Assembly: GCA_024278345.1 (NCBI GenBank)
Contig: JAJRTK010000003.1
Span: forward strand, 1-6,804
DNA from: a bacterium
Lineage (GTDB): Bacteria; CSSED10-310; JAJRTK01
DNA length: 6,804 bases
Direction: 5' to 3'
The position numbers and the translations under genes were made by a program. Shown piece by piece: positions 1,112 through 6,804 of the stretch; the stretch's first letter is position 1, and each line of letters opens with the position of its first letter. The notes under the pieces were generated by a model. It saw only the letters and a list, made by a program, of their open reading frames with translations, did not search any database and was not told the origin of the DNA.

Positions 1112-2563
1112 ATGAAACAGATGAGTTGGTGGGGAGCCTGGGGATTCGTGTTGGTGGCCTTGGGAAGTCCGGCATTGGCGGCTGTGGACATGAGTGCCTC
1201 GGAGCTTATCCAGGTTCAGGGTCACGTGGAGGTGCGAAAGGGGGAAGGGGGGTTCAAGAAGGTTCCCTTGAATCTTCGGCTTGCCGGTTCCTTGAAGCGC
1301 CTGGATGGTGGGGATAACGTGAAGACCAGGCTGGAGAGCGCCGCGGAATTGGCGCTTGCCGAGGTTTGTGTGGTGGCCATCAAGGAGAACACCCTGTTTG
1401 AGGTTCCGGCGACCCTGGGTGATGAGGGGCGGCTGCAGCTCCGCGCAAAGGAGGGATCACTCCTCATCAAGGTTGTCACCGGAAGCCAGTTCGAAGTGCA
1501 GACCGCCGATGTTGTGGCGGGCGTCAAGGGAACGCTCTTCGAGGTGGAAGTGGTGGACGATCTGCGGGGGATTCTCTTGCTTCCGGGGCTCGAGCTTGGA
1601 AGTCCCATGGCGGGCGGCACGGTCATCAACGTCTATGAAGGTGAGGTGGAGCTGACTCATGAAGGGACGAAGCATCGCCGCAAACTCTTGGCCGGAGAAG
1701 GAATTGCCGCGGTAAGTCCGGCGCTGATGGGTCTAGACGATTCCATGGCCGATGGGTTTGGCCAGATCAGGAAGCTCGAGGTCAAAACGATGTTGCGGGA
1801 GCGGTTTGGCACGGTGGGGGAACGTCTCCGCGCCGTTGCCTCCACCAGGGAGGCCCTTGGGAATCTCGATTTGGCGTTGGTGAAGCTTCCGACGCGGATA
1901 GGACGAGTCTCCCAGCGTGTGGAACGGATCGTGGAAGCCATGCCTGGAAAAGCCCTCAAGAAGCTCCGAAAGATCCGGTTGGAGCGGGGCGTGTTGGCGC
2001 CTCTTCGCCGTGTGGGCGTTCTTGAGAAACGAAAAGCGGACTTCGATGCCTCGGGCTTTCCCGTGGAAGAGGAAGCGGTGGTTCTTAAGGGCGGGGAGAT
2101 CAAAGTGATCCACCTTGGCGAAGGTCTCTTCATGGGGATGGTTTCTTCGGAAGGCGCGGCGGGGATGACTGTTGCTCCGGAAGGTGAGGGATTTGGCCTG
2201 AAGAGTGGTGAGGGCAGTTTTCGGATTGCGGACGTCGAGGGGAATCTCGATGCCTTGGTGACGGTGCGTGGGGGAAAATCGGGGCTTCAGACTTCGGTCC
2301 AGATCAGGAAGGGAACGCTGCGAGTCCGTCTTCCCGGTGGTGGGGACGACCTGGATTTTTCCCAGGGGAGCTCCACGCTCTTCCAGCGCGGGTCAGAGGG
2401 CGGTGCCATCCAGGTCCTGCCGGGCAAGGGCGCGTTGTCCGACGGAATCGAGGATCTTCGGATGCCGTTCGATCCGAAGAAAAAGGGTTGGAAGAACTAT
2501 TTGGAGAAGCAAAAGAGAAAGCTGCCGTGGAAAAGGAGAAGACGTTCCAACGACCAGCGCTGA
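1112..2563 (+). CDS. Secreted FecR-domain protein
   Basis: This 483-residue protein starts with a Sec signal peptide: MKQMSWWGAW, then the hydrophobic GFVLVALG and a cleavage site after SPALA (about residue 23). Residues 34-200 form a FecR domain: VQGHVEVRKG, a 'D...VKTRLESAAELALAE' segment, a strand-rich middle, and the diagnostic ADVVAGVKGTLFEVEV (132-147), followed by VINVYEGEVEL and LLAGEGIAA. Residues 210-315 are charged and probably helical. Residues 320-450 are again strand- and glycine-rich and unassigned. The tail (456-478) is strongly basic. Unlike classical FecR anti-sigma regulators it has a cleavable signal and no evident transmembrane helix, so it is predicted to be periplasmic or exported. 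The stop lies 11 bases before the cyclase start, so the two are almost certainly co-transcribed. FecR-domain proteins beside CHASE2 cyclases are a recurring pairing, and a sensory or ligand-binding role in that pathway is inferred. The ligand is unknown. Confidence 0.88.
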   Translation: MKQMSWWGAWGFVLVALGSPALAAVDMSASELIQVQGHVEVRKGEGGFKKVPLNLRLAGSLKRLDGGDNVKTRLESAAELALAEVCVVAIKENTLFEVPATLGDEGRLQLRAKEGSLLIKVVTGSQFEVQTADVVAGVKGTLFEVEVVDDLRGILLLPGLELGSPMAGGTVINVYEGEVELTHEGTKHRRKLLAGEGIAAVSPALMGLDDSMADGFGQIRKLEVKTMLRERFGTVGERLRAVASTREALGNLDLALVKLPTRIGRVSQRVERIVEAMPGKALKKLRKIRLERGVLAPLRRVGVLEKRKADFDASGFPVEEEAVVLKGGEIKVIHLGEGLFMGMVSSEGAAGMTVAPEGEGFGLKSGEGSFRIADVEGNLDALVTVRGGKSGLQTSVQIRKGTLRVRLPGGGDDLDFSQGSSTLFQRGSEGGAIQVLPGKGALSDGIEDLRMPFDPKKKGWKNYLEKQKRKLPWKRRRRSNDQR

Positions 2564-2570
2564 GGGAAGG
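2562..2570 (+). promoter_or_regulatory. Ribosome binding site deciding the cyclase start
   Basis: GAGGGAAGG overlaps the FecR stop codon and sits four bases before ATG 2575. It favours this start over the in-frame TTG at 2488, which would create a 76-base overlap with the FecR gene. The arrangement suggests translational coupling. Confidence 0.65.
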
Positions 2571-2574
2571 CTCC

Positions 2575-5500
2575 ATGGGATTTCGCAAACCAGAAGCCCG
2601 CCGGTCCCTCCATGGGCTTGCCGATTCCTCGAAGGCTGTCTCCTCCAGCCGTCGGTTGCTCTTGGTTCCACTGCTCATCTCTCTTTTCATCCAGTTGCCG
2701 ACGCCGCGCCACTTCGTCGCCTGGCTAGACGCAAAAGTCACAGACCTCTACTTTGTGTTGTTGCCTTCAGGAGAGGTGCGCCATCCCTCTCTAGTGGTGG
2801 CCAAGGACCAGTTGGCCTTGGACTCGCTAGGCCACGAGCCTGGCCGTCCCGAGTTGGCAAAGAGCCTGGATCTGCTCCGGAAAGCTGGAGCCCGGGTCGC
2901 GGCCTTGGACTTCATCTACGATGCTCCACTGGAGCCAGTGGCGGATGCTCGGTTGGCCCGTGCGCTGGAACGGTTTCCGGCGGCGATTCTGGCGACCCGG
3001 TTCCACCGGCGGACAGCTCTGGTGGGAGGCAGGACGGTGATGCTCGGCCTATCGTCCGGGCCGCCGCCTCCGCCGCTTCCTCTTTATGAGCCGCTGGCGT
3101 CGGTGGCAGCCGGCCGGGGATTCGTCAATCTATTTCTGGATTATGACGGTGTGGTCAGGGCGCTGCCCCTGGCTTTTCGGACCTCGGGGAGTGCCGAGCT
3201 CCAGCTCACCTTGGGGTTTGCGGCCTTCCTGGAGCGGGTTGCGGCCCGGTCGGGGTTTTCCCCGGGTGCCGGAGTGTCGCTTCCTAGGCCCGGCGCTGCG
3301 GAATTTTCAGGCTCAGCCGGCCGGTGGTTGCATACTGCCTTGGAGGCGGCGCCGCGGCGATTTCGGAGTACGGGCCATCCGGGCCTTGACCTGGCGGTCC
3401 GCCGCCGGGAGTTGCTCTGGTTGGCGCGATTGGCCGCGGCTGAGATTCGCGGCCCCGGAGCTCCGGACCGTGGAGGCGTCCCGAAGCGGGACGCCAGGTT
3501 GGCGTGGCGGACGGTGGCCGAAGAGCTGGATCTGACGACTCTGCCGGACAGATCCTGGTTGGACCTGCCCAAGGATGGGCTTCCCCTGTTTGGGCCGGAC
3601 TATGCTCCTTCTTTGAGGGTCCGGTTTCGCCGGGAAGCCTGGCCACAAAAAGGGGACGGCATTCCCACCGTCTCCATGGGGATGGTGCTGGGCCGCGGGA
3701 CCCGCGCTTCCGAAACCGTGCGCATCGCGGCCGCTGGGAAGGAGGGTAAGACTGTCTACCTGGGGTTTGATTGGTCCGAGCCCGGGGAGGGGATTTTGGA
3801 GGGGCGGGTCATTGATTTTGGGGGCCGGCCGCTGGCGGGCGTCCAAGTTCTTTGCCGCCAGGCGGCTGGAGGCTATTGGACCCGGGCGGTTTCCGGAGTG
3901 CGTGGCGGTTACCGGTGCCAGGGGCTTCCGTCCGGCCGCTATCAGGTCTCGCTTTGGAAACGGATGGGCGACGCGGTACAGAGGCTCGACCTGGAGGTCC
4001 CGGTGCAGCTTCCCGGCGTCGGTCATGGTCTGGGCGACCCACCCAAGAGCCGCGAAGCAAAAAAAATGTGGGCGGGGAATCGGTCGCCTTTCATTGCAAC
4101 GGGTCCTGCGCGCTCCCTGGCGAAGTCCGGGAGCAGCGCTCCTGGCGGAGGCCCGGAGCGGAGCGGAGACCGGGGTATCCACGCAAGGCGGGACATTCCC
4201 GGGACTGTGGAATCGCAAGCGTCCGGGGATTGTAGCGTGCGGTCCTCCCGGCCCGCATGCATAGGGAGTGGATACCCCGAAGACCATGACCGTAAGGTCA
4301 TAACCGGCGCTCCTGGCGGAGGTCCGGCGGCAGAGCCTCCGGGGGCCTCCAGGGCAGGAAACCCTGGCACCCTGCCCGGAATCCACGGGGCGGTCGGTGC
4401 CGAGCGGCAGCGAGATCCGCCAGAGCGGCCACCGATGACCGAGTCCCGGCTTTCCAAAGGAAGCCTGCGGCTGGCGGATGCTCGTTTCCTGCCAGGAGAG
4501 GGCCTTTTGACGGGAACTCTGTTGCCCTGGAACCAGGAGCAGCGTGTCACCCTTTTTGCCGATGGTGTTTGGGTCGCCGTGAGTGGCGCCGCCGGAGAAA
4601 TGCCGTTCCGCCAGCCCCCGCCCGGCCTTGAACTCGTGCCGCTCGCCGGGGATGAGGGCCTGGATTGGTCGGCTGACGGCCTTCTCCGCGGGCCGGACGG
4701 CGAGGTCCTGCCCGGTCGCCGTGTGGCCCTCCTGGAACCGGCTCCCCAGTGGAAGAGCTCCGTGACAGCCACCGTCTCTGTTCCGGCGTCGGCCACGGAA
4801 TTTGAGATTCGCGGCATTCCTCCGGCTCTGGGGGCCAGGGTGGCGCTTCTGCGTGACGAACCGGGAGCTCCCCATGGCCGGCCCGCCGAAGTGGATATCC
4901 TTGATGGCCGGCCCGCTCGCATTGCCGGATTGGACCGCCTCGGGAGCTTCAGCTTGGTTCCGATCCCGGTTTCCTTGGAGTTCTCCCCCGATGCTCCGCC
5001 CGATTTGAGGATTTGGTTTCTGGATGGAGAAGCTGGCTGGCGTCCCGCGGAGCTCCAGAGCTCCACGATTGGTTTACCGTCTGGGAAATACAGCGTATTT
5101 GCGGCTTCCGGCACGCGGCGGGGCACCTTCAACCGCCTTGCCGGCCTGGTGAGCGGCCGGACCCTCTTTTTCGGGACGACGTTGCCCGAAGACCTGGACT
5201 TCCGCATGACCCCCATCAACTTCCTGGATCGGGATTTTCATCAGCTCCCCGGGGTCAATCTTCACGCCAATCTTCTGTCGGCGTTGGTGCGGCGGGATTT
5301 CCTCTGGCCCACCATCCTGCATCCGGACGCCAGCCCGATCTTCTGGCCCCTTTGGGACCTCTTGGCGCTCCTGCCGATTTTGGTCTTGTTGGACGAGATC
5401 TTCCGCCGTTGGGGCGGCCTGGCCGGCGGGCTGGCTTCCCTGGGAGCCGTGGGGCTTTGGATCGCGACCTCGGCGCTCTTGTTCCTCAACCAGTGGCTCC

Positions 5501-6459
5501 TACCGTCGGCCCTGCCGGCTTTGGCCCTGGGCTCCTTCGGAGTGGCGCGTGGCGTCGGAGCCTATCTGGCGGCCCGCGGCCGGGAACGGATGGCCCGGGA
5601 AACCTTTGGGCGGTTTGTTTCGCCCGTCATGGTGGAGCAGATTCTCCGCCATCCGGAGCGCCTTCGGCCTGGCGGAGAGAAAAGAGTCTTGACCGTCATG
5701 TTCACCGATCTCGCGGGGTTCACCTCCATCTCTGAGAAACTGGAGCCGGAAGCCCTCACGGCACTCATGAACGAGTATCTGGGCGAGATGACCCAAATTC
5801 TGTTTGAGCATGGCGGAACTTTGGACAAATATATCGGCGATGCCATCATGGGCTTCTGGAACCATCCTTCGCCGCAACCCGATCACGCCGCGCTGGCGGC
5901 TCGGTGCGTGCTGGCCATGGATGCGCGCCTGGCGGAGCTTCGGGACCGATGGTTGGAGCAGGGTCTTCCCCGCGTCTCCATGCGGGTCGGGCTCAACAGC
6001 GCGCCCTGCGTGGTGGGGTTTGTGGGGAGCGCCATCCAGATGAACTTCACCTGCCTGGGAGACGGAGTCAACCTTGCCGCCCGGTTGGAGGGGGCCAACA
6101 AGGTCTATGGCACGTCGATGATGATTTCGGAGTTTACGAAGGCGGAGCTTGATGGGGCCGGGATTCCCACGCGGTATCTGGACCTGCTGGTGGTCAAGGG
6201 CAAGCGTCGGCCCATCCGGGTTTTCGAGCTCATGGAGGAGGGGCATCCCGTGGCCGGTGAGGTTCTGGCTCTCTACCACAAGGGAGTGGAGCAGTACCGG
6301 GCCCGGAATTGGCGGGAAGCCGAAGCCACCTTCCTGGAACTTTTGGAGCAGGTTCCCGGGGACGGTCCGTCCGAGGTCTATCTGGGTCGTTGCCGGCTAT
6401 ACGCGGCCAAGCCGCCTCCCGCGGACTGGGACGGATGTTTTGTCATGACCGGCAAGTGA
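2575..6459 (+). CDS. CHASE2-domain class III adenylate cyclase with a large insert
   Basis: This 1294-residue membrane protein is predicted to convert ATP to cAMP. A membrane segment (about 27-41) leads into an extracytoplasmic CHASE2 domain: AKSLDLLRKAGARVAALDFIYD (95-116), GFVNLFLDYDGVVRALPL (182-199), and GIPTVSMGMVL with GKTVYLG (about 362-397). CHASE2 is then interrupted. A carboxypeptidase-regulatory-like fold (about 406-479) has GRPLAGVQV and GLPSGRYQVSLW. A repeat-derived stretch (about 496-620) and more beta-rich sequence (621-860) follow. CHASE2 resumes with GRTLFFGTTLPED (861-873) and LPGVNLHANLLSALV (891-905). Three membrane segments follow (about 924-940, 949-971, 974-991). The cytoplasmic cyclase domain has metal ligands D1045 (MFTDLAGFT) and D1089 (YIGDAI), purine-specifying K1085 and T1159 (FTCLGD), and N1166 and R1170 (VNLAARLE), a class IIIb adenylate-type set. 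The C-terminus is a TPR-like segment ending DWDGCFVMTGK, as is usual in this family. All catalytic residues look intact. Confidence 0.9.
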   Translation: MGFRKPEARRSLHGLADSSKAVSSSRRLLLVPLLISLFIQLPTPRHFVAWLDAKVTDLYFVLLPSGEVRHPSLVVAKDQLALDSLGHEPGRPELAKSLDLLRKAGARVAALDFIYDAPLEPVADARLARALERFPAAILATRFHRRTALVGGRTVMLGLSSGPPPPPLPLYEPLASVAAGRGFVNLFLDYDGVVRALPLAFRTSGSAELQLTLGFAAFLERVAARSGFSPGAGVSLPRPGAAEFSGSAGRWLHTALEAAPRRFRSTGHPGLDLAVRRRELLWLARLAAAEIRGPGAPDRGGVPKRDARLAWRTVAEELDLTTLPDRSWLDLPKDGLPLFGPDYAPSLRVRFRREAWPQKGDGIPTVSMGMVLGRGTRASETVRIAAAGKEGKTVYLGFDWSEPGEGILEGRVIDFGGRPLAGVQVLCRQAAGGYWTRAVSGVRGGYRCQGLPSGRYQVSLWKRMGDAVQRLDLEVPVQLPGVGHGLGDPPKSREAKKMWAGNRSPFIATGPARSLAKSGSSAPGGGPERSGDRGIHARRDIPGTVESQASGDCSVRSSRPACIGSGYPEDHDRKVITGAPGGGPAAEPPGASRAGNPGTLPGIHGAVGAERQRDPPERPPMTESRLSKGSLRLADARFLPGEGLLTGTLLPWNQEQRVTLFADGVWVAVSGAAGEMPFRQPPPGLELVPLAGDEGLDWSADGLLRGPDGEVLPGRRVALLEPAPQWKSSVTATVSVPASATEFEIRGIPPALGARVALLRDEPGAPHGRPAEVDILDGRPARIAGLDRLGSFSLVPIPVSLEFSPDAPPDLRIWFLDGEAGWRPAELQSSTIGLPSGKYSVFAASGTRRGTFNRLAGLVSGRTLFFGTTLPEDLDFRMTPINFLDRDFHQLPGVNLHANLLSALVRRDFLWPTILHPDASPIFWPLWDLLALLPILVLLDEIFRRWGGLAGGLASLGAVGLWIATSALLFLNQWLLPSALPALALGSFGVARGVGAYLAARGRERMARETFGRFVSPVMVEQILRHPERLRPGGEKRVLTVMFTDLAGFTSISEKLEPEALTALMNEYLGEMTQILFEHGGTLDKYIGDAIMGFWNHPSPQPDHAALAARCVLAMDARLAELRDRWLEQGLPRVSMRVGLNSAPCVVGFVGSAIQMNFTCLGDGVNLAARLEGANKVYGTSMMISEFTKAELDGAGIPTRYLDLLVVKGKRRPIRVFELMEEGHPVAGEVLALYHKGVEQYRARNWREAEATFLELLEQVPGDGPSEVYLGRCRLYAAKPPPADWDGCFVMTGK
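4060..4434. repeat. Palindromic repeat DNA read through within the cyclase gene
   Basis: This stretch encodes a Gly/Pro/Arg/Ser-rich sequence with no fold signature, unlike the domains on both sides, and looks like intergenic repeat DNA. GCGCTCCTGGCGGAGG followed by C or T and CCGG occurs at 4136-4156 and 4307-4327 (20 of 21 identical, 171 bases apart), with a degenerate copy at 4110-4130. A perfect 12-base inverted pair, CGGGGTATCCAC and its complement, lies at 4171-4182 and 4268-4279. A tight hairpin ATGACC-GTAA-GGTCAT lies at 4286-4301. Positions 4306-4361 match the inverse of 6717-6772 at 46 of 56 positions. Only the cyclase frame is open throughout; the other two forward frames stop at about 4235 and 4264. 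Boundaries are approximate. Confidence 0.65.
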
Positions 6460-6611: not shown

Positions 6612-6717
6612 GTACCGGACGGGATTCACGCACTTGAACGGTGGGTTCCTGTAGGGCGTAAACTGGCCTCGGTCATGGTACCGGCCACGGTTCAGATTTC
6701 AGACGCCGCCCCGGGGC

Positions 6718-6804
6718 TTCCAGCCCTGGAACCCGGCGGAGGCTCCGCCTCCGGACCTCCGCTGGGAGCGCCGCTCCCAGACCCACGCCAGGGAGCCAGC
6801 TCCC
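6718..6804. repeat. Cluster of four short palindromes
   Basis: Four near-adjacent perfect inverted repeats are visible: TTCCAG-CC-CTGGAA (6718-6731), GGCGGAG-G-CTCCGCC (6735-6749), CTGGGAGCG-C-CGCTCCCAG (6762-6780) and GGGAGC-CA-GCTCCC (6791-6804, ending at the window edge). Most of 6717-6772 is also the inverted relative of 4306-4361 inside the cyclase gene. This looks like a mosaic of REP-like units that probably continues beyond the window. Confidence 0.65.

Follow-up and report, generated by a model that had tools for sequence, protein, structure and literature searches.

Two nested MITE-like elements, very probably inserted in frame, in a nucleotide cyclase gene of an uncultured bacterium

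How does repeat DNA of an intergenic type come to lie inside a nucleotide cyclase gene whose reading frame remains open? The question is raised by a window of 6,804 nucleotides, one whole contig (C16) of a MAG of 6.06 Mb and 550 contigs. The cyclase gene (Table 1) lies downstream of a gene with a FecR domain (1112-2563), and its product matches the Pfam profiles CHASE2 (residues 42-218), CarboxypepD_reg (408-462) and Guanylate_cyc (1039-1212). Its frame has zero stops from 2575 to 6459, and its best orthologues are in genomes of Candidatus Riflebacteria / Ozemobacteraceae. A preliminary description of the window had located a stretch of 125 codons (4060-4434) rich in direct repeats within this gene and regarded it as a repeat exonisation that added disordered residues to the protein. 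On the same contig, a Cas2-like gene (543-1112, + strand; Pfam CRISPR_Cas2, E 2e-19) carries a long and odd C-terminal extension, and no further cas gene was noticed there.

The segment matched its own genome at the DNA level in 67 places. Within the 1.24 Mb of genomic sequence compared with the cyclase gene, 4033-4447 was the only part of the gene to recur, at up to 53 other places, and the identity of the inserted DNA to these genomic repeats was 75-100%. Side-by-side reading of the copies told apart two families of short elements, A and B, unrelated to each other. Family A has a 23-bp terminal inverted repeat (GGGTATCCACGCAAGGCGGGACA), mostly measures 210-300 bp and has target-site duplications of 8-9 bp on its flanks, many of them perfect; its end sequence occurs 421 times in the 6.06-Mb genome with at most three mismatches, against 0 for a reversed-pattern control. 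Family B has ends like GGCCTCGGTCATGGTACCGGCC, an inverted repeat of about 22 bp and a length of about 130-430 bp; its ends occur 316 times in the same genome (reversed-pattern control, 5), also beside duplications of 8-9 bp such as CCCGGAAGC in L115. Perfect duplications across the genome include GACGATGAG (L159), GGCTCCAG (L125) and, around a family B copy, GTTCAAGCG (L139). Both families thus combine the traits by which MITEs are recognized, i.e., inverted ends, target-site duplication, short length without a transposase gene and high copy number, and because of their inverted ends, 8-9 bp duplications and dispersed copies we class them as non-autonomous DNA transposons.

In the cyclase gene, a family B element (GGCSTCGGTCAT...ATGACCGAGKCC) encloses a short form of family A, and the inverted ends are degraded but recognizable (Table 1). 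The duplication at the exact ends of B has a chance of 0.003 among random 9-mer pairs of the gene. That it is imperfect, like that of A (7/9 in each), is a point against the reading as insertions. The preliminary description was right in supposing that the repeat is of a kind found elsewhere in the genome and in reporting direct repeats within it, but what it took for one repeat consists of two nested mobile elements, and its limits were too narrow: with one of the 9-bp duplications, the insertion 4015-4446 makes 441 nt, or 147 codons. The inverse match that it had noted between 4306-4361 and 6717-6772 extends to 4305-4367 and 6711-6773 (83% complementary) and falls in a second family B copy, opposite in orientation to that of the cyclase gene. 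B also exists without A in this genome: when the central 171 bp are left out, 230 bp of it align without interruption to C456 (75.7%), and shorter stretches match at other places. The left half of the nested A is identical to the family at 55 of 55 positions, as in many genomic copies, which suggests a young element; against this, the two copies of its duplication differ at two positions, and the match to the family at its short right end extends over about 10 bp only. It is possible that this A arose by recombination or has undergone it.

Table 1. Features of the cyclase locus and in-frame copies of the repeats in other genes
Feature	Position	Strand	Details
Nucleotide cyclase gene (insertion host)	2575..6459	+	1294 aa; CHASE2 / CarboxypepD_reg-like / beta-sandwich / TM / class III nucleotide cyclase
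Left target-site duplication of B, CAGCTTCCC	4006..4014	+	codons Q L P; 7/9 match to 4447-4455
Family B MITE-like element, including nested A	4015..4446	+	432 bp; ends GGCGTCGGTCATGG.. and ..CACCGATGACCGAGTCC; from family alignment and genome end count
21-bp direct repeat inside B, left copy	4136..4156	+	95% identity to 4307-4327
Left target-site duplication of A, CGGAGACCG	4164..4172	+	7/9 match to 4278-4286
Family A MITE-like element, 105-bp short form inside B	4173..4277	+	left end GGGTATCCACGCAAGGCGGGACA, right end GTGGATACCC
Right target-site duplication of A, CGAAGACCA	4278..4286	+	7/9 match to 4164-4172
21-bp direct repeat inside B, right copy	4307..4327	+	171 nt (57 codons) from left copy
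Right target-site duplication of B, CGGCTTTCC	4447..4455	+	codons R L S; 7/9 match to 4006-4014
Second family B copy, 3' intergenic, cut by contig end	6661..6804	-	perfect B end 6665-6686; inverted repeat; from repeat map
Predicted tryptic peptide	within aa 481-627		SGSSAPGGGPER
A in kinase-AAA-TPR protein	L128		244+8 = 252 nt; duplication 8/8
A in membrane TPR protein	L197		177 nt
A in helicase protein	L162		177 nt
Repeat in linker of 2-oxoacid dehydrogenase E2 acyltransferase	L173		99+9 = 108 nt, in frame; duplication AAACCAGAG; by inspection
B in exosortase-like protein	L193		132+9 = 141 nt, in frame; duplication TCCCTTTTC 9/9; A copy adjoins; by inspection
Repeat in multidomain acyl-activating enzyme	L179		in frame, by inspection

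The distribution of the two families suggests a history confined to this lineage. The ends of family A were absent (0 occurrences) from seven other genomes of the phylum and from the genomes of three orthologues (L060, L063, L064), and in seven genomes with orthologues those of family B occurred about as often as by chance. With neither family above the chance level in any other Riflebacteria genome that was searched, their spread looks lineage-specific. The viral contigs searched for the repeat gave no match. As for the enzyme that might mobilize A and B, the transposase profile PF00872 had 0 matches in the genome, and the sole match of PF01609 was a C-terminal fragment of DDE_Tnp_1 at the start of contig C373 (L193:1-270); the initial 480 bp of that contig contain neither an A nor a B end. 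The fragment is a candidate relic of an autonomous partner. Multi-copy insertion sequences easily drop out of such a fragmented MAG.

If the elements entered an older gene, its orthologues should resemble the gene without them. We aligned 15 full or near-full orthologues from Riflebacteria/Ozemobacteraceae, and 13 of them had no residue opposite positions 482-625 of the protein, an empty site that is read from proteins of about 37-55% identity, none from the same genus. The preliminary description had proposed this comparison, and the absence that it predicted holds also for the remaining two (L063 and L064), whose linkers of 37 and 83 residues in that loop, rich in Ala/Gly/Pro, are unrelated to the repeats. 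We considered a parallel insertion of A/B repeats in these two and rejected it, given this lack of relatedness and the absence of family A from their genomes. The span between two anchor columns of the alignment is 180 residues in the protein of the window; subtracting the 147 added codons leaves 33, identical to the span in L060, L061 and L069. The insertion falls into the loop that connects the CarboxypepD_reg-like domain to the beta-sandwich domain after it. In an AlphaFold2 model (residues 395-860, 15 sequences), the domains on either side mostly have a pLDDT around or above 90, and residues 90-233 of the model (484-627 of the protein) are mostly below 50, a value expected wherever no homologue aligns. 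The model supports, without proving it, the earlier prediction that the added residues would be disordered, here between two apparently well-folded beta-sandwich domains.

How surprising is the open frame? Both insertions respect the frame: B and one duplication add the 441 nt given above, A and one duplication add 114 nt (38 codons), and the B element and both its duplications begin on codon boundaries. The stretch 4015-4446 is open in a single frame of the + strand, in agreement with the preliminary description, and in one of the - strand; no stop was found within it. The given frame was open in 6.4% of dinucleotide-preserving shuffles of 4015-4446 and in 9.1% for 4060-4434, close to the several percent estimated before. 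The combined probability that a single insertion is both in frame and open is about 2% (1/3 x 6%), so one case alone is no proof of selection. The comparison of codon use with the flanks, also suggested earlier, gave a score per codon of -0.165 in the insert and +0.185 in the host gene; the insert codons lack the coding signal of the host, as their score is near that of the host read off frame (-0.193). Order-promoting residues make up 15% of the insert against 34% of the host. As for the families at large, 27 copies of family A contained 76 open frames for 29.8 expected from shuffles, and 22 copies of family B, a few doubtful elements included, contained 61 for 39.8 expected, counts in which the trials are not independent because copies share descent. 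These numbers suggest, short of proof, that both families contain fewer stop codons than expected from their composition. A frame of family A beginning GYPPKPG can be read in many copies (57-100% identity), mostly stop-free, e.g., L128:4075-4318, hinting at a shared open frame.

The cyclase gene is not an isolated case. In-frame copies were found in at least six other genes (Table 1) within about 1.24 Mb, about a fifth of the genome, read on contigs that were partly picked for holding repeats and with elements listed by their target-site duplication. These six were identified by element ends, duplications and Pfam matches, the orthologue alignment being that of the window cyclase alone. Wherever a true element had two coding-like flanks (L128, L197, L162, the B of the window and its nested A), its length was a multiple of three and it was stop-free. 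When the element is removed from L128, matches to TPR_19 and TPR_MalT cross the junction, and in L179 the AMP-binding match takes 488 residues for 380 profile positions. Two candidates from a relaxed search for ends were discounted: L172, which has coding flanks without real ends and is a false element, and L187, a doubtful one. In this same census, coding-like flanks were found for about 10% of the elements and for 47% of random genome positions. Such rarity in coding DNA is as expected if most hits in genes have been purged while harmless in-frame ones survive. Some of these genes have other peculiarities. In the L128 frame (1282-5472), the Ser/Thr kinase domain (residues about 100-237) is interrupted in its middle by about 100 residues that match neither A nor B, possibly an older or different insertion. 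The L179 protein that holds a repeat in its AMP-binding domain (L179:3-5396, - strand) also has a NAD_binding_4 match in which 256 profile positions take up 399 residues, the extra residues being unlike the repeats.

Taken as a sequence-based account, insertion of MITEs, B and then A, in frame into an interdomain loop of the cyclase gene is very probably the correct explanation of this locus. A short-read assembler could in principle have created the arrangement, by using a multi-copy repeat as a bridge between two loci or by slipping a repeat into the gene, and the MAG gives some cause for suspicion: it is split into 550 contigs, many of which, that of the window included, terminate in repeats of the A/B type. 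Yet the halves of the gene join in frame, the junctions are the termini of mobile elements with their target-site duplications, removal of the element leaves the exact length of the orthologues, and the same pattern, with perfect duplications, is found in several unrelated genes. An artefact, which the preliminary description had named as a threat to its reading, is very unlikely on these grounds. We give a little more credit, while still thinking it improbable, to an insertion that broke the gene and left a young pseudogene, open by chance and making no such protein. The frequency of open shuffles and the non-coding look of the insert codons are compatible with it, but it must accommodate two nested insertions that are each a multiple of three, a downstream part of 667 codons in which codon bias persists and the cyclase domain is still matched intact, and duplications that have aged while no stop or frameshift arose.

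Other explanations concern what the segment is. A segment so rich in palindromes and repeats might be removed from the RNA, like an IStron or a group I/II intron, or be bypassed by the ribosome, giving a protein without it. This has very little probability, because the frame is open and removal unneeded, because target-site duplications at exact ends fit DNA transposition, and because an Rfam scan of the window gave no intron or other RNA family at gathering score. The term exonisation used before is loose, since no splicing is involved; the in-frame insertion of a repeat stands, and in-frame MITE insertion describes it better. The segment might instead be an ancient, functional linker of low complexity that diverged fast and resembles the repeats by base composition. 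The linkers of L063 and L064 in the same loop give this idea some appeal, but they have no sequence in common with the segment and come from genomes without family A. The identity of the segment to dispersed repeats (75-100% at the DNA level, with element ends and duplications) largely refutes the idea, which we regard as highly implausible.

Nested MITE insertion into the cyclase gene would have proceeded in few steps. A family B element, non-autonomous and MITE-like, would have entered the interdomain loop of a CHASE2-type cyclase gene, duplicating 9 bp of target, and a family A element would then have inserted into B, an order suggested by the nesting; B could also have moved as one unit already carrying A. 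The transposase would have been supplied in trans from elsewhere. With each step the gene would have grown by a number of bases divisible by three and acquired no stop, so that it stayed open and became longer by 147 codons in all, which are presumably translated as a disordered loop rich in Gly/Pro/Ser/Arg between two extracytoplasmic beta-sandwich domains. Selection would have removed insertions that shift the frame, bring stops or disrupt folded cores, leaving harmless in-frame insertions in loops. The insertion was most likely tolerated rather than useful, neutral tolerance being the default; a gain of function from the added loop is speculative, though possible. A more ambitious proposal is that both families have become coding-compatible in this Riflebacteria lineage, i.e., poor in stops and prone to insert multiples of three bases, and act as a genome-wide source of new disordered loops in conserved proteins, some of them by now functional, for example by altering the extracytoplasmic sensing of the cyclase. 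We think this unlikely, without dismissing it.

In-frame insertion of MITEs is already known, from the Rickettsia palindromic elements (RPEs), reportedly described by Ogata et al. in 2000 and 2002, from ERIC and Correia elements, and from QMITE1 of Coxiella. What is new here is the phylum, the presence of two unrelated families with clear duplications, the nested pair in frame, and the residue-exact restoration relative to orthologues. RPEs are short MITE-like palindromes that contain open frames and lie in frame within many protein genes, conserved and unrelated to one another; the one host protein that was tested, Gmk, remains active (PMC10969869, PMC2229807). Like RPEs, A and B lie in frame inside conserved genes, and the copy of the window is absent from orthologues. 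RPEs are 105-146 bp long, with a question mark for target-site duplication in a review table (PMC10969869, PMC2229807), whereas A and B, compared here by description, are two unrelated families of another phylum, of about 130-430 bp, with clear duplications of 8-9 bp, inverted ends of 22-23 bp and a nested pair of which both members are in frame. Correia/NEMIS and ERIC are non-autonomous inverted-repeat elements that are sometimes fused in frame to host genes, and the termini of ERIC and Correia have a TA dinucleotide according to a review table (PMC2229807, PMC10969869); unlike them, A and B make duplications of 8-9 bp and lie mid-way in long genes. QMITE1 is likewise a MITE with in-frame fusions (PMC5896051). 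IStrons are rendered harmless through RNA splicing (PMC4227781). A and B share with IStrons and group I introns the condition of mobile DNA that lies in genes and is made harmless to the host, but their insert is kept in an open frame, with no match to an intron model in the Rfam scan.

A review of 2024 judged it 'conceivable' that the same MITE-driven change of proteins occurs in other prokaryotes (PMC10969869). In-frame palindromic elements have Rickettsia as their best-known host, and this MAG, from an uncultured bacterium of a little-studied phylum, provides a clear independent case. Comparison of close Riflebacteria genomes, together with proteomics, can now test whether proteins gain new segments from mobile repeats or whether these just litter tolerated loops.

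The window also holds a third dispersed repeat family (C), with palindromes like CACCGGCAAGATGCCGGTG. It occurs in the intergenic DNA at either end of the contig (149-233 and 6526-6659), in opposite orientations, and in 40-51 other places of the fetched DNA.
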